64,000 bases of DNA from Acetivibrio saccincola (lineage in GTDB: Bacteria; Bacillota; Clostridia; Acetivibrionales; Acetivibrionaceae), in contig NZ_CP025197.1 of the NCBI RefSeq assembly GCF_002844395.1, forward strand, positions 3,224,001 to 3,288,000, given 5' to 3'. Position 1 is the stretch's first letter; every line of letters begins with the position of its first letter. The notes under the pieces were generated by a model. The model did not search any database and was not told the origin of the DNA. It saw only the letters and a program-made list of their open reading frames with translations. The position numbers and the translations under genes are program-made. Positions 10,627-19,378 of this stretch are shown in pieces.

Positions 10627-10751
10627 TTTTTACCCCTGTTATAAGCTTTCATTGTAATTATATTTATTTGCATTTAGGGACTTAGTTATACTTTTGCCAT
10701 TAAAAACAGCTGTATTTTGTCCTTAAAAAACAGAAAATACCCCGTGAAAAT

Positions 10752-10830
10752 AAAAAAAAGCCCCGTGCATTCCAAGAAGAGACGGGAGAATGCCACGGGT
10801 TTAGGGGAGTAACTTTTTTCACTAATCACA
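10752..10830 (-). ncRNA. Candidate C-rich small RNA, copy A
   Basis: On the minus strand a -10-like TATATT (10842-10837) is followed by about 80 bases. The body has a conserved single-strand segment (GTTACTCCCCTA) and a hairpin of two 11-bp arms with one bulged base (10762-10799) whose loop is TCTCTTC-rich, then eight T. The 38 hairpin bases are identical in copy B at 13556-13593, and similarity continues upstream to 10919. CTCCCC is complementary to Shine-Dalgarno sequences, as in known Firmicute regulatory RNAs. It could equally act only as the terminator of the anti-sigma operon upstream. The reading frames of the two copies do not agree, which argues against a peptide. Confidence 0.5.
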
Positions 10831-10888
10831 TATCTTAATATACACTATAATTATTTAGAATAAAAGTTAACTTCAACACTTCTTGAAT

Positions 10889-10895
10889 TTCGACA
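10889..10895 (-). promoter_or_regulatory. Spo0A-type box upstream of sRNA copy A
   Basis: TGTCGAA on the minus strand, within a stretch conserved in copy B (13686-13692), about 50 bases upstream of the proposed -10. This is the core of the Spo0A box. The match is short and binding is inferred. Confidence 0.4.
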
Positions 10896-10967
10896 AAAAA
10901 TACTATTAAAAGCAACGGGCTATTTACTTTTGCCGGTGTATTTTCTTGCATAACATTAATATAATGG

Positions 10968-10995
10968 CGGGACATGAGAAATATCCCATGTCCCG
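10968..10995. other. Perfect 9-bp hairpin after the anti-sigma gene
   Basis: CGGGACATG (10968-10976) pairs perfectly with CATGTCCCG (10987-10995). No T-run follows on the minus strand, where the upstream gene ends at 11057. It may stabilise the mRNA 3' end or act with the terminator of copy A further on. Confidence 0.5.
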
Positions 10996-11056
10996 GTAAA
11001 TTTTTCTTTAGCTTAAATTTATCTAAATCAGTCATTTTACGCTATATATTTCTAAA

Positions 11057-12715
11057 CTAAAGGGGGTCATATCCGACTACAGTCCATATTCCTGTACTAT
11101 CCTGCCTTATCAATTTCTTTAAATATACCTTGCTTATATTTGACACGTCCCCGCTTACTTCTAAAACAGCCTCTATTCCGTTATTTTTTATAACCTTTAT
11201 GTCCTCATAATTAACAGGATAATTTCCCACAATGCCTTCAGGAGAAATTTCAAGGCTTACAAATACTTGTGCCACATAAACGGGATCAAGTTTCCAGGGG
11301 GAATGTCCGGCATCCACGCTTTTTTGCTCATTTTCTTCTATATTTAAATCAACAGGAACTTCAATCTGAGGCTTATCCAAAAATTCTTCATCCTCTGGAA
11401 GAAGTACAACTGTGCCATCCCATAAGTTTTTTACAAAGGAAGCCAGATCATTCAATGAAAGGTTTCCGACCACGGCAAATTCAAGCCCGTCTTCCTGCCA
11501 GCGTATAGAGGTAATATCTGTTATACCTGAATATATTCCCCCGCCTGAAATAATTCCATACTCCTCCCTGACAGGTGACTGAATTTCAGCAATATTCCCG
11601 TCAATTTCACCTAAAATAGCGCTTGATGCAGGATTAAATTCGCCTTCTGCCTTACCTTGAAAAACAATCACCCTGTTTTCTTTATCCTGGGAAATATAGT
11701 TGAGTTTAGCTGATTTTCCATCTTTTATAACTGATACACTGTCTAATTTATACCCCTTTAATATTTCATTTGGTATTTTAAAAGAAAATCCAAGCATCTC
11801 TTCCGCTTCTTCCATATTGCTTACCAGCTGCTCAGGGTTTTTGTCTATTTCTTCAAAGCCTTCCGGGATGTTGTAAGCAATTAGTTCTTCAGGTAAAACA
11901 TCATGATAGTCAATGCTTGTATAAACAGCTACATACTGGATTGCGTTTAGCATCGCACTTTCTCTTTTCAGTAGAAGTTTAGTTTCTTTATCAACCCATA
12001 TGCGGTAGGGCTCCCCACCTTCGGGAGTTACCTCAAGAACTGCAGCTTCCCTGTATGAAACCCTGTCCTCTCCAATGGTCTTAACTTCAGCGGCATTTTT
12101 AATCCTGTCTATTTCATTGCCCAACTCAAATGTAAATTGATAGGGGTCCGGAAAGGACGGAAAAATAAATACCTTTCCTTCATCAAAACGCATCTGCCAT
12201 TTTTTCTCGCCGTTGTTTGCAGTTATCATAACCGTCTCTGAACCTTCCAACTCCTTTACATAATAGCGGCCATTCTTATCCGCCCATACTTCCCGGACTT
12301 TTTGTACAGTTTCTTTTCCTTCTGCATTTTTTTCAATGATTTCAATAATTCCATGATATGCCTTTATTTCCTTAAATGCCTGTTCCATAGCAAATACAAT
12401 ATCGGTATTTTTAGGATATAGTGCAAAGTTTAATAAAAGTGCCAAAATAACAACCGCCGCCGCTGCAGCAGCCCATATTCCCCTTTTCTTTCTGCCGGGC
12501 TTTTTATCTGATAATTGTCCTAAAACCTTTCCAGCCAGCTTTTTAGAATAGTCCCCCTCCGGAAAAACAGGCTCTTTTAAACTGCGGACTTTTCTTACAG
12601 TATCCATAAGTTTTTCTATTTCTGGTGACTCATTAAAATTTTTATGGGCTTTAGGTTTTTTTTCATCATTTAAAGAGTCAATATAACTGGATAATTTGTC
12701 TATATCCCTCTTCAT
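11057..12715 (-). CDS. Membrane anti-sigma factor with RseB-like sensor domain
   Basis: Probable anti-sigma protein for the ECF sigma gene just upstream. The start is the ATG at 12715, with AAAGGAGG 6 bases before it, 13 bases after the sigma stop. 552 residues: a cytoplasmic part (about 1-78) that would hold the sigma factor, one membrane helix (about 80-99, AAAAAAVVILALLLNFALYP), and a large outer part. The outer part begins like the LolA/RseB lipoprotein-sorting fold (KEIKAYHGIIEIIEKN, then WADKNGRYYVKE). It continues with a second domain (about 290-420) of the kind found in clostridial anti-sigma proteins, and a C-terminal domain. The signal sensed is unknown. Confidence 0.75.
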   Translation of the reverse strand: MKRDIDKLSSYIDSLNDEKKPKAHKNFNESPEIEKLMDTVRKVRSLKEPVFPEGDYSKKLAGKVLGQLSDKKPGRKKRGIWAAAAAAVVILALLLNFALYPKNTDIVFAMEQAFKEIKAYHGIIEIIEKNAEGKETVQKVREVWADKNGRYYVKELEGSETVMITANNGEKKWQMRFDEGKVFIFPSFPDPYQFTFELGNEIDRIKNAAEVKTIGEDRVSYREAAVLEVTPEGGEPYRIWVDKETKLLLKRESAMLNAIQYVAVYTSIDYHDVLPEELIAYNIPEGFEEIDKNPEQLVSNMEEAEEMLGFSFKIPNEILKGYKLDSVSVIKDGKSAKLNYISQDKENRVIVFQGKAEGEFNPASSAILGEIDGNIAEIQSPVREEYGIISGGGIYSGITDITSIRWQEDGLEFAVVGNLSLNDLASFVKNLWDGTVVLLPEDEEFLDKPQIEVPVDLNIEENEQKSVDAGHSPWKLDPVYVAQVFVSLEISPEGIVGNYPVNYEDIKVIKNNGIEAVLEVSGDVSNISKVYLKKLIRQDSTGIWTVVGYDPL

Positions 12716-12728
12716 TTTTTTACCTCCT

Positions 12729-12956
12729 TTATAGTTGGCCTTCCATTTCATCAAGGATTTCAGAAAGTTTTTTTAGGGCTCTGTATTGCAGCACACGGAT
12801 TGCCCCTTCTTTTTTGTTCAAAATCCTTGCAGTTTCTTTCGTGGAATAGCCTTTAAGTATCCTAAGTTCAATAACCTTACGCTGATGGGCGCTAAGTTTA
12901 TTTAATGCTTCCTGCACAATGGCCCTTTGGGCATACAATCCGGCATCATCATCCAC
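12729..12956 (-). CDS. ECF sigma factor, C-terminal fragment (region 4)
   Basis: 75 residues with the sigma region 4 helix-turn-helix: LNKLSAHQRKVIELRILKGY, then TKETARILNKKEGAIRVLQYR, which reads the -35 element. This is the second half of the gene that begins at 13332. The bases from 13007 down to 12957 in this frame also read as a normal ECF linker (RNFLNVDLEAVNPKE), so the ATG at 12956 is probably not a real start. See the N-terminal fragment for the frameshift. Confidence 0.75.
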   Translation of the reverse strand: MDDDAGLYAQRAIVQEALNKLSAHQRKVIELRILKGYSTKETARILNKKEGAIRVLQYRALKKLSEILDEMEGQL

Positions 12957-13002
12957 CGCTGTTTCTTTAGGGTTTACTGCTTCTAAATCTACATTCAGGA
13001 AA

Positions 13003-13332
13003 TTACGTTTTTTTCTTCCGCCACCTGTCGCGTAAAATATTTAGTGCAGTGGTCTTTAAGAAGCTTATGTGTTTTTCCACTTCTACATTGTTTCTTTTTA
13101 GATACGAAAGTGCTTTTACATAGGCTTCCTGTGTAATATCTTCAGCTTCCTGGCGGTTTTGTACTTTAAAGTATATAAAGCGGTATACAGCCTTCCATGT
13201 TAAAGAGCATATTTCTTCTATTGTATCCCTGGCTTCTTTATCTGAGGCTTTATTATCTGCGTTTTTTGTACTTAAGGCTCTTGTATCTGCATCTTTTCCT
13301 TGTAGTTTTTGTAAACTTTTCTCTACAAACAT
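13003..13332 (-). CDS. ECF sigma factor, N-terminal fragment (region 2), frameshifted
   Basis: Carries sigma region 2 (WKAVYRFIYFKVQNRQEAEDITQEAY), which binds core polymerase and the -10 element. The frame stops at 13003, straight after a run of seven A (T on plus, 13008-13014). With six A the reading would pass into the region 4 fragment at 12729-12956 and give one complete ECF sigma factor of about 200 residues. So this is a one-base insertion, a slippage site or a sequence error. The start is the second ATG (13332), 8 bases after AGGAG. A leading segment of about 40 polar residues precedes region 2, longer than usual. Confidence 0.75.
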   Translation of the reverse strand: MFVEKSLQKLQGKDADTRALSTKNADNKASDKEARDTIEEICSLTWKAVYRFIYFKVQNRQEAEDITQEAYVKALSYLKRNNVEVEKHISFLKTTALNILRDRWRKKKT

Positions 13333-13349
13333 ATTCATAGCTCCTTTTT

Positions 13350-13361
13350 TTGACCGGTCAA
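13350..13361. promoter_or_regulatory. 12-bp palindrome before the ECF sigma ribosome site
   Basis: TTGACCGGTCAA is a perfect palindrome directly upstream of the sigma gene's ribosome site. It may be an operator or fold in the mRNA leader. No factor can be named. Confidence 0.4.
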
Positions 13362-13413
13362 TTGTGTGGACAATTATATTGTGTGTACAATAATTTTATT
13401 TGTACAATAATAA
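13359..13413. repeat. Degenerate repeats of about 18 bp in the sigma leader
   Basis: On the minus strand the leader repeats ATTATTGTACA twice at 18-base spacing and then TAATTGTCCACACAATTG. The TTGT-A/C-CA units are partly palindromic and lie between the candidate ECF promoter and the sigma start, so they could bind a regulator. Confidence 0.45.
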
Positions 13414-13414
13414 T

Positions 13415-13441
13415 GACGTTAAAAGTACACTAAACGTTACA
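13415..13441 (-). promoter_or_regulatory. Candidate ECF-type autoregulated promoter
   Basis: Minus strand: TGTAAC (13441-13436), 17 bases, CGTC (13418-13415). ECF sigma promoters commonly have an AAC-type -35 and a CGTC/CGTA -10, and many ECF genes drive their own transcription. Inference from two short motifs. Confidence 0.4.
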
Positions 13442-13544
13442 TCTTGCTTTTTAAATTTTATTCTTTCTTAAAAGCCCTTTGTAAATTCTGATTTCAGCAT
13501 GAACTTAAGAAATAATGAAATGAAAAACCATAAAAGGAGTGAAT

Positions 13545-13627
13545 AAAAAAAAGCACCCGTGCATTCCAAGAAGAGACGGGAGAATGCCACGGGATTTATA
13601 TAGGGGAGTAACTTTTTTTAATCACCA
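13545..13627 (-). ncRNA. Candidate C-rich small RNA, copy B
   Basis: Second copy of the element at 10752-10830, in the same orientation, here upstream of the ECF sigma gene. TATATT (13639-13634, minus) precedes a body with GTTACTCCCCTA and the same 38-base hairpin (13556-13593) ending in eight T. Because a terminator between an upstream promoter and the sigma gene would make no sense as an operon end, this copy supports a free small transcript. Outside the 38 identical bases the copies have diverged, so the duplication is not recent but the hairpin has been kept. Confidence 0.5.
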
Positions 13628-13685
13628 TAAACTAATATACATTAAACCTTTTAAAAATAAAAGCATACTTCAATACTTCTCAAAA

Positions 13686-13692
13686 TTCGACA
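13686..13692 (-). promoter_or_regulatory. Spo0A-type box upstream of sRNA copy B
   Basis: TGTCGAA on the minus strand at the same place relative to the element as in copy A (10889-10895). It lies within a more diverged part of the repeat, so its conservation is suggestive. Confidence 0.4.
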
Positions 13693-13787
13693 AAGTTCTC
13701 TTTAAAAAGCAACAGGTCATGGACACCCAATAAAAAACAGGAAATATTTTCATCTATAAAAAAAACATAAACCACATCTATATATTA

Positions 13788-13942: not shown

Positions 13943-16900
13943 ATGAACTTAATAAACAATAGGTACAAAATATTGTCAAATATTAAAGATGGTGCCAATA
14001 ATTTATTCTTTCTTGTATCGGATTTATATAATGATGATAGAAAGTTAGCTTTGCGCATTATAAATTCTGATTTGCTTTCTTCAAAAGCTATTGATTTTAT
14101 AAAAGAGGATTTTATATCCTTTTCATCCCTATATCACCCTAATATTGCATATATATACGGTATAGGGATAGTTGATAATATTGATGGTAATTATATCAGT
14201 AAAAAACAATATTTTTGTACGTTTGAATATGTAGAGGGTAAAGATTTATTCAATTTTTCTAAAAATTTAAGTTTTAATGACATTATAAATATTCTTATGC
14301 AAATATGCAGCGGGCTCTATTATCTTCACAAAAGAGGCTACCATCATGGAAACCTTGATCTTAAAAATATAATTGTTTCAAAATCAATAAACCCCTTTTT
14401 GGTAAAAATACTGCCTGGGCTGTCAGGATGCCCGGATTTTGATAAACTAGTCCTTAACTTAAAGAGAAACAGCCTCCAGTTTAGGGCACCTGAGGTTTTA
14501 AAATATAATAAAATTACTTATCTTTCTGATTTGTACTCTTTAGGTGTAATTATTTTTTATCTTTTTTCAAGGCAAAATCCTGATAAAAATAATTTTTTAA
14601 ACCTTTGGGAATCTTACAAAAAAAATCCCTTTGATTTAGATTGTATTCCAACAGATATGAAAAATTCTTTTATAAACCTAATTGATAAGCTAACAAGTGA
14701 AAATCCATACAAAAGATACCAAAGCGTACTTGATATAGTTAAAGAACTGGAGAAAATTTGTCGTACCACTTTTGCCCTAAATATTAAACCTTTGGAAAGA
14801 ATAATAACAAATACTAAACTTATTGGAAGAAAAGAAAATATTTTGCAGCTGTATAATTGGAAAAACAAAATTATAAACAACAGTACAAAAAACAGGATTT
14901 TTTGCATACACGGGGATGCAGGTATTGGAAAAACTAGGCTTTTGAAGGAATTTTCCTTCCACATGAATATGGATAAACTACTGGTTTTATCAGGCGTGTC
15001 ATTGGATAATGATAAAATTAATTACGAGCCTTTTATACAAATTTTAAAAAAAATTATTCCTTTAGCACACAACGATATTTTGGAAAAGTACGGTCCTGAA
15101 TTGGTTAAAGTACTACCTGATGAAAAACTTTTAAAGGACATAATTCCGTCCCCTCCTTTATCTCCTGAAAAGGAGAAACTACGTTTAAAAATAGCTATAA
15201 CCGCTTTTATTTCAAATGTACTGGAAAAAAGACCTACCATAATGATGTTTGATAATGCACATTTACTGGACGAGGCTAGTTTTGAAGTTATAGATTATCT
15301 TGCAAATATTAACAAGACAATACCCCTTTGCATAATACTTTCTTATAGAAAAAAGGAACTGGAAAAAAATAAATTTGCAAATGATTATATTAAAAAATTT
15401 CTAAAAGCCCAAATTGCCATAGATATGCCGTTAGGTAAATTTGGATTTGAAGAGACAAATAAGTTTATCCAAAAGCTTTTAGGCATTAAATATTCCCCTA
15501 CTGCCTTTTCCACAGAAATTTTTAAATATACTGAAGGAAACCCGGGCTTTATAATTGATGTTATTGCAGCTCTATATAAAGACGGTAAATTATACATGGA
15601 CTCTTATGGCGACTGGTGTACTGACTTTGATGATAATGCAGACTACTCCATGCTTTATATACCTTCAAGCAAAAAAGAAGCAGTACAAAAATATATTGGC
15701 AATTTGAAAGAAGACTCTTATAAAGTTTTAGAGCCAATTTCTGTTTTTAATACACCTGTATATTTTCATGTCCTTGAAAAGGTTTCTAAAATTGAACAAA
15801 ATACATTAAAATCCATCCTTGAAGAATTAATATCTTACCAGCTAATTGAAAAAAGACTGGCGGACTTAGGGTATACCTATACTTTTCATTCTAAAAGCCT
15901 TAAAACTGAAATATACATAAAGATAGATTCAAAAAGGAAAAAGGAACTTCACCGGCAGTACGCAATGATTTTGGAAAGTATTTATTCTATAGAAGAAAAA
16001 ATTAATACAGATGAACTAATCTATCACTATACACAGGCGGACAGCAATGAAAAAGCTTTAGAACTAATTATAAAAGCTGCGGAAAAAATGTTAAAGCTTC
16101 ACATCAGTGCCCAGACAATGGCATACCTTAAAAGGGGTATTGAGCTGTCAAAAAAAATTTCCTCTGTAGAACACACCATTAAAATTCTTCTGATGATGGG
16201 GGAATTATACCGTAAAAACGGTGAAAACCAAAAGGCTTTTGACTGCTATAATGAGGCTTTAGAATATGCAACAAATATTGACGATAAAATCACCATTGCA
16301 AAAGTAAAAGAAATGATAGGGGCACTGTACACCAGGAAAAATGATTTTAACAAAGCCCTTGACCTTTTAAATGAATCCCTTTCACTTTCAAAAGAAATCG
16401 GGTATGTGGAAGGATACTTAGAATCCCTTAGAAGAATATGCTGGATATATATTTTTAAAAGAAAAAATTCTGAGGCAATTGATATAATTAATAATGTCCT
16501 CAATGAATATCCTGATGAAAAATACTCATATTATCATGCATCTTTATATAATGTATTAGGAACTCACTATTTAGAAATTGGAAATATTGACAAGGCTATT
16601 TACTGTTATAACAAAAGTATAGAACTTTTTAAAAAGTCCGGTAACAATGTTGAAATTGCATATCCTTTAAACAATATTGCCACTGTATTTGCTGAGTTTT
16701 TAAATGATAATGAAAAGGCACGGGAATACTTTCAAAAATCCCTTCAAATAAATATAGACAATAATTTGGTTGAAGGCATCTCAGGCTGCTACGACAATTT
16801 AGGCGAAATATGCAGGTTAGAAGATGATTATAAGAATGCGTTAAAATACTATTTTAAATGTGAAGAAATTTCCAAAGAATGTGATTTGAACTCAATTCTC

Positions 16901-19378
16901 TTTGGAGTATATAAAAATATTCTTCTTGCGTTTTTGGAACTGGATGAGTATGAAAAATCCCATGACTATCTACTAAAGGCTAAGGCTGAAATAAAATCAA
17001 ATGCTGACAGGGGCTTGGATTTACAAATTTTTTATGAATACGCCACCAGGTTTTACTATGAAATTGGAAGCTTCAAAGAAGCAAGAGACCATGCTTCTTT
17101 GGGAATAGAAATATTTAAAAACTCAGGGGCGTTAGAAAGCATATCTATTTATAGCATTAAAATGTTGTCAGAGTATTTTATGTCCCCTGACAGCGGTATA
17201 GACAGTCTTTTTACTGAATTTTATAATTTTCTTCCTAAGTACAACAGCTGCCCTTCCCTAAAAGAAAAAAGAGAAACCCTGCACAGGGTTGCAAATGTTT
17301 TTATTGAAGAAAAAAAATATGAAAATGCTGTTTTGCTCCTCAATGAAAGTAAAAACTTAAGTGATAAAATAGATACAAAACGGCTTAAAATAGAATATTT
17401 AATTGCCCTTGGCGCTGCAACAAGAGGCAGGGAAGGAGTTGAATATATTAATGAAGCCCTCAATTTAAATGAGGAATATAAATCCCTGCGCATGGAGTGG
17501 AGAGGATACAAAGCACTAGGTGACATCTTTTTTGAAGAAAAAAACAATAAATCCGCATACTTTTATTACATGAAAGCTTTAAATACATTGTATTCTCTTG
17601 TACAGCATGTTCCTGAAAAATATAAGGAAGCTTTCCTGTACTCCCATTACAGATATATTCCACGTGAAAAGCTTTTGTCTATACGTTTAAATTGGCTATC
17701 AGAATATAAGGATTATGTAAATAACCAGATGAATAAAAAATTATGCAGCAATTTTAATGAAATTGAATCTTTCTTTGAAATTGTAAACTCCGGATTTTCA
17801 TTACTTCCTGAGGAAATGCATTTTAAAAATTATTTAGACAATAAAGGCTTAGGCAGAATTAAAGATATTTTTGCTAATTTTTCAAATAACCATATGCAAA
17901 ACTTAAAACAAATCCTGGAATTCTCTTATGAATTGACACAAGCAGATACGGGGTGCATACTTAAATACAATGACAATATGGAACTGGATGTATTTGTAAA
18001 GCACTATAGTGGCAACACTTTTCATTACTATCAATATGTAATTGAACAAGCTGCCGGAAATCCCAAAGGTATCTTTGTATCAGACGTTTTAAACAAAAAA
18101 ATCGGAAACACTGATATCGCTCTTCCCGGGAAAATAAAAGCAGTTATTTGCATACCTTTACATATCTCTGATACAGAGAAAAAACATTTTAAAGAAAAAA
18201 GAAAATACGCCCAAAACTCAAATCTGGATGTGAAAGGATATATTTACCTTTCAACTAATAATATATTTAACAGATTTACATGGGATAATTTTGATATTAT
18301 TAATATTCTCTCAAAACAAGCAGCTATAATTATTGACAACTATAATTTAAAACTTGCCTCATCCATTGACAAATTAACGGGGGCTTATACAAGAAAACAT
18401 TTTGAAAATAATATTGATGCCTATCTAAATAAAGCTTACAAAAGCAAACAGCCTTTGACATTTATAATGGCTGATATTGATAAGTTTAAAAATGTAAATG
18501 ACAACTTTGGCCATCAAAAAGGCGATGAGATATTGGCAAAGGTAGGGGGCATCATTTTAAACAATATCAGGTCAACAGATATGTGCTGTAGGTATGGGGG
18601 GGAAGAATTTATAATTGTTCTCCCAAATACCGGTTTGAAGGATGCAGAAATGATGGCAGAAAAGTTAAGAAGTGCGGTGGAAAATGCACACCTTATGGGG
18701 AAGACAAACAGCCTTACTATAAGCCTTGGAATATCATCCTACCCTAAACACAGCCAGTTAAAGGAGGAACTTATAGCCAAAGCTGACCAGGCACTATACC
18801 ATGCAAAGGAATCCGGAAGAAACCAGTATTCTGTCTGGACTCCTAAAATGCAAAAAACAAGCAAAAGAATGGACACCCTTGCAGGGATTATTACCGGAAA
18901 TGTGGTACAGGATCAGCGAAATGTTCTTGCAATGTTGGAAATAAATAATATAATAAATAGTAAAGTAAGTACCGATATAAAAATATATAATATTCTTAAA
19001 AAGCTAATGGATATATTTGAGGCAGAATACTGTGCTTTTATAAAAATTTTAAGTTCAGGTTCAAGAAAATTTAAAACATATGTACATCATAAAGGAACGC
19101 CCCAATCAGATGACGGGGAGAGCTATAATGAAAAAATCGTAGAAAAAGCAATTAAAACCCAGACCGGAACATATATGCTTGATTGGGAAAATGTAAATAT
19201 AATTGACTCAGAATCCGGGGAACCAATATTAAACTCTGTACTTGTTGAACCTATAATAAAAAACGAAAGTGTAAAAGCTGTATTGTACTTGTCCTGTCCT
19301 ATGACACGAAAGGAATATGGATTTAACGAGCTGAATTTTCTCAGCGCTTTAGCCAGCTTCATTTATCCAATAATATAA
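13943..19378 (+). CDS. Pseudokinase-ATPase-TPR-GAF-GGDEF-GAF signalling protein
   Basis: 1811 residues, soluble. Order: a protein kinase-like domain (1-270); a P-loop ATPase of the AAA_16/STAND kind (about 285-600; Walker A GDAGIGKTR near 323, Walker B TIMMFDNAH near 431); a long TPR region (about 650-1260); GAF (about 1310-1470); GGDEF (about 1473-1630); and a second GAF to the end. The kinase domain is degenerate: HRDLKxxN reads HGNLDLKN, the beta-3 Lys is Arg (LALRI), and DFG is missing, so it is probably a pseudokinase. The GGDEF has the active GGEEF and an RxxD inhibitory site (RSTD) five residues before it, so it should make c-di-GMP with product feedback. GGAG precedes the ATG. Single-gene unit ending at a two-way terminator. 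Confidence 0.85.
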   Translation: MNLINNRYKILSNIKDGANNLFFLVSDLYNDDRKLALRIINSDLLSSKAIDFIKEDFISFSSLYHPNIAYIYGIGIVDNIDGNYISKKQYFCTFEYVEGKDLFNFSKNLSFNDIINILMQICSGLYYLHKRGYHHGNLDLKNIIVSKSINPFLVKILPGLSGCPDFDKLVLNLKRNSLQFRAPEVLKYNKITYLSDLYSLGVIIFYLFSRQNPDKNNFLNLWESYKKNPFDLDCIPTDMKNSFINLIDKLTSENPYKRYQSVLDIVKELEKICRTTFALNIKPLERIITNTKLIGRKENILQLYNWKNKIINNSTKNRIFCIHGDAGIGKTRLLKEFSFHMNMDKLLVLSGVSLDNDKINYEPFIQILKKIIPLAHNDILEKYGPELVKVLPDEKLLKDIIPSPPLSPEKEKLRLKIAITAFISNVLEKRPTIMMFDNAHLLDEASFEVIDYLANINKTIPLCIILSYRKKELEKNKFANDYIKKFLKAQIAIDMPLGKFGFEETNKFIQKLLGIKYSPTAFSTEIFKYTEGNPGFIIDVIAALYKDGKLYMDSYGDWCTDFDDNADYSMLYIPSSKKEAVQKYIGNLKEDSYKVLEPISVFNTPVYFHVLEKVSKIEQNTLKSILEELISYQLIEKRLADLGYTYTFHSKSLKTEIYIKIDSKRKKELHRQYAMILESIYSIEEKINTDELIYHYTQADSNEKALELIIKAAEKMLKLHISAQTMAYLKRGIELSKKISSVEHTIKILLMMGELYRKNGENQKAFDCYNEALEYATNIDDKITIAKVKEMIGALYTRKNDFNKALDLLNESLSLSKEIGYVEGYLESLRRICWIYIFKRKNSEAIDIINNVLNEYPDEKYSYYHASLYNVLGTHYLEIGNIDKAIYCYNKSIELFKKSGNNVEIAYPLNNIATVFAEFLNDNEKAREYFQKSLQINIDNNLVEGISGCYDNLGEICRLEDDYKNALKYYFKCEEISKECDLNSILFGVYKNILLAFLELDEYEKSHDYLLKAKAEIKSNADRGLDLQIFYEYATRFYYEIGSFKEARDHASLGIEIFKNSGALESISIYSIKMLSEYFMSPDSGIDSLFTEFYNFLPKYNSCPSLKEKRETLHRVANVFIEEKKYENAVLLLNESKNLSDKIDTKRLKIEYLIALGAATRGREGVEYINEALNLNEEYKSLRMEWRGYKALGDIFFEEKNNKSAYFYYMKALNTLYSLVQHVPEKYKEAFLYSHYRYIPREKLLSIRLNWLSEYKDYVNNQMNKKLCSNFNEIESFFEIVNSGFSLLPEEMHFKNYLDNKGLGRIKDIFANFSNNHMQNLKQILEFSYELTQADTGCILKYNDNMELDVFVKHYSGNTFHYYQYVIEQAAGNPKGIFVSDVLNKKIGNTDIALPGKIKAVICIPLHISDTEKKHFKEKRKYAQNSNLDVKGYIYLSTNNIFNRFTWDNFDIINILSKQAAIIIDNYNLKLASSIDKLTGAYTRKHFENNIDAYLNKAYKSKQPLTFIMADIDKFKNVNDNFGHQKGDEILAKVGGIILNNIRSTDMCCRYGGEEFIIVLPNTGLKDAEMMAEKLRSAVENAHLMGKTNSLTISLGISSYPKHSQLKEELIAKADQALYHAKESGRNQYSVWTPKMQKTSKRMDTLAGIITGNVVQDQRNVLAMLEINNIINSKVSTDIKIYNILKKLMDIFEAEYCAFIKILSSGSRKFKTYVHHKGTPQSDDGESYNEKIVEKAIKTQTGTYMLDWENVNIIDSESGEPILNSVLVEPIIKNESVKAVLYLSCPMTRKEYGFNELNFLSALASFIYPII

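Follow-up and report, generated by a model that had tools for sequence, protein, structure and literature searches.

A putative family of ~80-base regulatory RNAs sharing a C-rich seed in cellulose-degrading spore-formers

The window, the whole 64-kb stretch of DNA that was analysed, carries two copies of an element that, judged from sequence comparison, belong to an undescribed family of ~80-base regulatory RNAs in cellulose-degrading spore-formers. The elements are probably stand-alone genes for trans-acting non-coding sRNAs, with a seed that would pair with Shine-Dalgarno (SD) sequences and with promoters of the Spo0A or sigma-D type. About 50 members in three promoter classes were found, all of which keep TACTCCCCTA and the terminator hairpin, and the family can be pictured as one constant seed placed behind varied promoters. 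Rfam gave no match at the gathering threshold and nothing relevant at a lax threshold (LhrC, RsaE, FsrA and 6S included), and no description of this RNA was found in the open-licence literature, in agreement with the preliminary description, which knew of no RNA of this layout.

Copies A and B in the window

Direct reading of the sequence confirmed the coordinates previously given for two copies of ~175 bp on the minus strand, each with TGTCGAA, TATATT, GTTACTCCCCTA, an identical 38-nt hairpin and eight T.

Copy A
10744-10919, minus strand: whole element (promoter, sRNA gene and terminator)
10889-10895, minus strand: putative 0A box TGTCGAA, at about -65 to -59 from the inferred start
10837-10842, minus strand: -10-like TATATT
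10752-10830, minus strand: predicted sRNA of ~79 nt, its 5' end inferred from the -10
10802-10813, minus strand: seed GTTACTCCCCTA, the complement of UAGGGGAGUAAC
10762-10799, minus strand: terminator hairpin of 38 nt, with CTCCC in the loop
10752-10759, minus strand: eight T after the hairpin
Copy B
13540-13717, minus strand: whole element
13686-13692, minus strand: putative 0A box TGTCGAA
13634-13639, minus strand: -10-like TATATT
13545-13627, minus strand: predicted sRNA of ~83 nt, from sequence and folds
13601-13612, minus strand: seed GTTACTCCCCTA
13556-13593, minus strand: terminator hairpin of 38 nt, identical to that of copy A
13545-13552, minus strand: eight T after the hairpin

A repeat search aligned the copies in segments of 73%, 92% and 85% identity, alike in order and spacing, and their direct comparison gave E=4e-37 at 80% identity. 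Even with one mismatch allowed, GTTACTCCCCTA occurs in the 64-kb window in copies A and B only (0.21 expected); TGTCGAA occurs three times, which is the chance level, two of the three being inside the copies. The C-rich segment is unpaired in the predicted folds of both RNAs (z-scores -2.25 and -2.18).

What had been taken for a pair proved to belong to a family that numbers six or more members in the source genome (G000), here copies A-F. Copies C and D were found by whole-genome search, E with the covariance model R1 and F by a search for the seed pattern; A, B and C form class 1, D and E class 2, and F class 3.

G000:C1:2524939-2525023: copy C (class 1)

Each copy would yield a trans-acting non-coding sRNA of ~75-95 nt. 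We propose that the RNA consists of an exposed seed, (U)UACUCCCCUA, and a terminator hairpin with a second CUCCC in its loop, preceded in class 1 by a short stem at the 5' end (AGUAA/UUACU), and that the seed, probably together with the loop, pairs with G-rich SD regions, which would block translation of the targets.

Copy A is located downstream of the anti-sigma gene; copy B occupies the gap that separates the sigma gene start from a divergent gene. These two copies flank the ECF operon, as noted earlier; they are common only to the nearest relative (G004), at the same positions around the operon, and this context is incidental to the family.

Several other features of the region were observed. 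A one-base frameshift within an A7 run (window 13003-13012, minus strand) interrupts the ECF sigma gene, which is intact in G004; this could reflect a pseudogene, slippage or phase variation, or a sequencing error. Just upstream of this gene are tandem operator-like repeats, TTGTGTGGACAAT / TTGTGTGTACAAT / TTGTACAAT (window 13361-13410), and between the anti-sigma gene and copy A there is a near-perfect inverted repeat without a T-run, CGGGACATGAGA/TCCCATGTCCCG (window 10968-10995). The gene divergent from copy B (window 13943-19378) encodes a protein of 1811 aa that combines a Ser/Thr-kinase-like region at the N terminus with a diguanylate cyclase (GGDEF) domain.

Seed conservation and candidate targets

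Across 25 class-1 sequences GTTACTCCCCTA is unchanged within variable flanks, and the loop CATTCTCCC is nearly so (CGTTCTCCC in one); TACTCCCCTA is unchanged in 31 class-1 and class-2 sequences. The seed is mostly unpaired in predicted folds, with a mean unpaired probability of 0.77. Like other UCCC-type sRNAs, the family has an unpaired CUCCC/UCCC motif conserved above background and, to judge from motifs and positions, a promoter and an intrinsic terminator of its own. Copy D contains two TTACTCCCC in tandem and its relative in G004 (G004d) three, suggesting that the unit of function is the seed. Copy F has a GTTGAACA-type motif upstream, followed by TACTCCCCTA, then CCCGTAGTTTAGC...GCTAAATGTACGGG and a T-run. 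When inspected by eye, most predicted class-1 transcripts lacked an evident start codon accompanied by a ribosome site, so these RNAs are likely non-coding.

Among the genes examined, only one recurrently has the seed complement beside its start codon: a lineage-specific second paralogue of YyaC (TIGR02841/DUF1256), present besides the canonical one and here called yyaC2.

G000:C1:3516653-3517243: yyaC2, second YyaC paralogue

All 11 genomes with yyaC2 have T(A/T)GGGGAG before its start; two genera have the leader TAGGGGAGTAG or TTGGGGAGTA and a third has TAGGGGAGAA, GGGGAG being kept in 11/11. The canonical yyaC leaders inspected are without the seed-complement motif. Compared with shuffled leaders, the predicted duplex energy at yyaC2 was clearly better in G006, G007, G009 and G013, marginal in G000, G003, G005 and G010, and no better in G001, G002 and G004. 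From its leader sequence, yyaC2 is a candidate target; G008, G011 and G012 have the sRNA but yielded no yyaC2, so it cannot be the only one. Sites of the form GGGGAGTA-N-ATG are only modestly more frequent than in a reversed-pattern control, and most matches in target searches with TAGGGGAGT-N-ATG and GGGGAGTA-N-ATG are not conserved genes. Hfq is encoded in 14/14 family genomes.

The weak target enrichment, and the repeated seeds of D-type members, which resemble multi-site sponges, would also suit an RNA that is genuinely controlled by Spo0A or sigma-D and binds or titrates a protein or another RNA instead of masking SD sequences. We consider this unlikely, as CUCCCC belongs to a known class of SD-pairing motifs in sRNAs of low-GC Gram-positive bacteria (PMC4132741) and the complementary motif is retained before yyaC2 in all 11 genomes.

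Genomic positions and stem covariation

At least one copy, and at least one class-1 member, is present in each of the 14 family genomes (Acetivibrio/Herbivorax); one class-1 and one class-2 copy were found in an apparent C. thermocellum genome. The copy number reaches eight in one genome. Class-1 members also occur in three genomes of a neighbouring family (f5), and neighbouring families hold further relatives of the RNA. A covariance search of f4, the other large group of the order, found no members, and outside the order (391 genomes across the class) it gave only three weak candidate matches; the sRNA family is therefore lineage-restricted.

A class-1 copy lies upstream of cca (tRNA nucleotidyltransferase) in 14/14 family genomes, stand-alone and intergenic, its neighbour on the far side being divergent or unrelated, and is the ancestral gene. 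Class 3 adjoins an rpoD-like gene in two genera, and the positions of class 2 are genus-specific, yet conserved. The names cca and rpoD were read from the protein sequences and not from a family scan.

In the terminator stem, two-sided changes were found at three pairs (GC to AU in nine sequences; CG to UA in three and in six). Paired cells make up 98.6% of the total. Two-sided changes number 18, while shuffles gave 4.6 and slid pairings no more than 8; the covariation score was reached by 0/500 shuffles and slid controls were far lower. Compensatory stem changes with TACTCCCCTA unchanged are the kind of support named in the preliminary description.

These data also bear on whether the elements serve adjacent operons simply as intrinsic terminators, with the C-rich stretch belonging to a longer termination signal. 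A hairpin and T-run do end every copy, and copy A is placed as a terminator of the anti-sigma gene would be, but copy B and the copy upstream of cca are free-standing, which argues against plain operon terminators, and the promoter motif and seed are conserved better than the stem, whose changes are compensatory. Hairpins confined to operon ends, with no conserved C-rich segment or box, were not seen, and we regard this explanation as very improbable. A MITE-like origin, in which a small mobile or repetitive element spread at the DNA level and recent copying accounts for the conservation, is hardly credible. Numerous and dispersed as the copies are, orthologous positions are kept across genera, conservation is a mosaic of seed, box and hairpin and is not uniform, stem changes are compensatory, and a viral collection gave no match. 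Copy A has a single inverted repeat close to its ends, an imperfect one (79%) for which copy B showed no counterpart. The conserved positions, mosaic conservation and stem covariation largely refute it.

Promoter classes and comparison with known systems

In class 1 the TGTCGAA box (TTTGTCGAA) is invariant in all 22 members from the family genomes and has the fixed promoter position expected of a Spo0A regulon: its start precedes the seed by 79-82 nt, or by 94 nt in a member that carries an insertion. The box is preceded by a conserved TGC-TTTT block and followed by a TATATT/TATAGT-like -10. The three f5 orthologues have TGTCGTT at this place; in G012 another perfect box is present 12 nt further upstream, and in G029a two 0A boxes face each other. 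This invariant box, together with the invariant GTTACTCCCCTA, is consistent with the free sRNA, Spo0A-box promoter and selected C-rich segment suggested in the preliminary description. The heptamer is short, which counts against our preferred reading. The classic Spo0A activation position overlaps the -35, and the class-1 box, at about -62, is further upstream.

Spo0A is encoded in 14/14 family genomes, each with two proteins above the Spo0A cut-off (the first of the two in G013 is a partial match). We hypothesize that Spo0A~P, or the second Spo0A paralogue, switches on class 1 at the start of sporulation.

G000:C1:2164682-2165467: Spo0A-type protein of the source genome
G000:C1:2651535-2652326: Spo0A-type protein of the source genome

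The class-2 promoters read TAAA/TAAT-N18-CGATA in 19 of 20 cases, with N17 in one, and are preceded by A/T tracts. As expected of a sigma-D regulon, the flagellin promoters of the same genomes share this arrangement (for example TAAAGTTAATCATAATTTATAACGATAT in the source genome), with N18 in six of ten and N16-17 in the others, so class 2 looks sigma-D-driven. The TAAA-N18-CGAT spacing is one base above the textbook sigma-D consensus. A sigma-D pattern with a fixed leading C and N18 matched only the sRNAs themselves in the source genome; it was too strict, because the flagellin promoters read ATAAAGT. Flagellin was found in 13/14 family genomes, the exception being 55% complete. Sigma-D would produce class-2 RNAs with the same seed in motile cells.

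Class 3 (copy F; members in G005, G007, G009 and G044) has a putative operator motif, CATGTTnAACA...AAATAGAAC. The metagenome-assembled genome G044 (SKW257 MAG) has seven sRNA matches, mostly class 3 (L068, L100, L332-L336), and in several of its copies TGTCGAA also directly precedes the -10. We put forward tentatively, as somewhat less than an even prospect, that promoter exchange among sRNA paralogues wired one anti-SD seed to sporulation, motility and a third regulator, such that each fate would silence the same mRNAs.

To our knowledge, few sRNAs are directly under Spo0A in clostridia, and no directly Spo0A-controlled sRNA was found described for the cellulolytic Acetivibrio group in the open-licence literature. 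Sporulation limits the industrial use of this group. The family allows a test of whether the programmes for motility and for sporulation meet at the same translational targets by way of sibling sRNAs that share a seed, and the conserved seed and promoters, with a single ancestral class-1 copy beside cca, offer a simple genetic entry point.

Several known sRNAs resemble the family in part. FsrA, RoxS-RsaE and IsrR of Bacillus and Staphylococcus likewise use unpaired C-rich segments to pair with SD sequences. They have few copies per genome and are under iron or redox control, and the present family shows no Rfam similarity to them. CsfG of endospore formers is a forespore sigma-F/G RNA; the promoters identified in the present family are of different types. 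Like CsfG, SpoX/SpoY of C. difficile, which act on spo0A mRNA, are sporulation-linked sRNAs of Firmicutes (PMC10267692); here, in contrast to both, the promoter itself has an 0A box, and there is no sequence match in Rfam.

The csRNAs of Streptococcus are controlled by CiaR (PMC4507080, PMC3091779). They too are small, very similar to one another and under a single response regulator, acting additively by pairing around the SD sequence or AUG; they differ from the present RNAs in regulator, sequence and taxon. We know of no sigma-D-type siblings among them. By analogy, the closest working model is LhrC1-5, the multicopy sRNAs of Listeria monocytogenes controlled by LisRK (PMC4132741). Shared features are the multiple copies, control by a response regulator (here inferred), and UCCC motifs both in single-stranded regions and in the terminator loop; moreover, the promoter element required by LisR, at about -53 to -75 (PMC4132741), is close to the position of the 0A box here. 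LhrC1-5 all depend on one regulator, whereas sister copies here have Spo0A, sigma-D-like or other promoters, and the Listeria RNAs show no sequence relation to the family, with no Rfam match even at the lax threshold. Most likely, the family described here works in the manner of LhrC and the csRNAs but belongs to neither.
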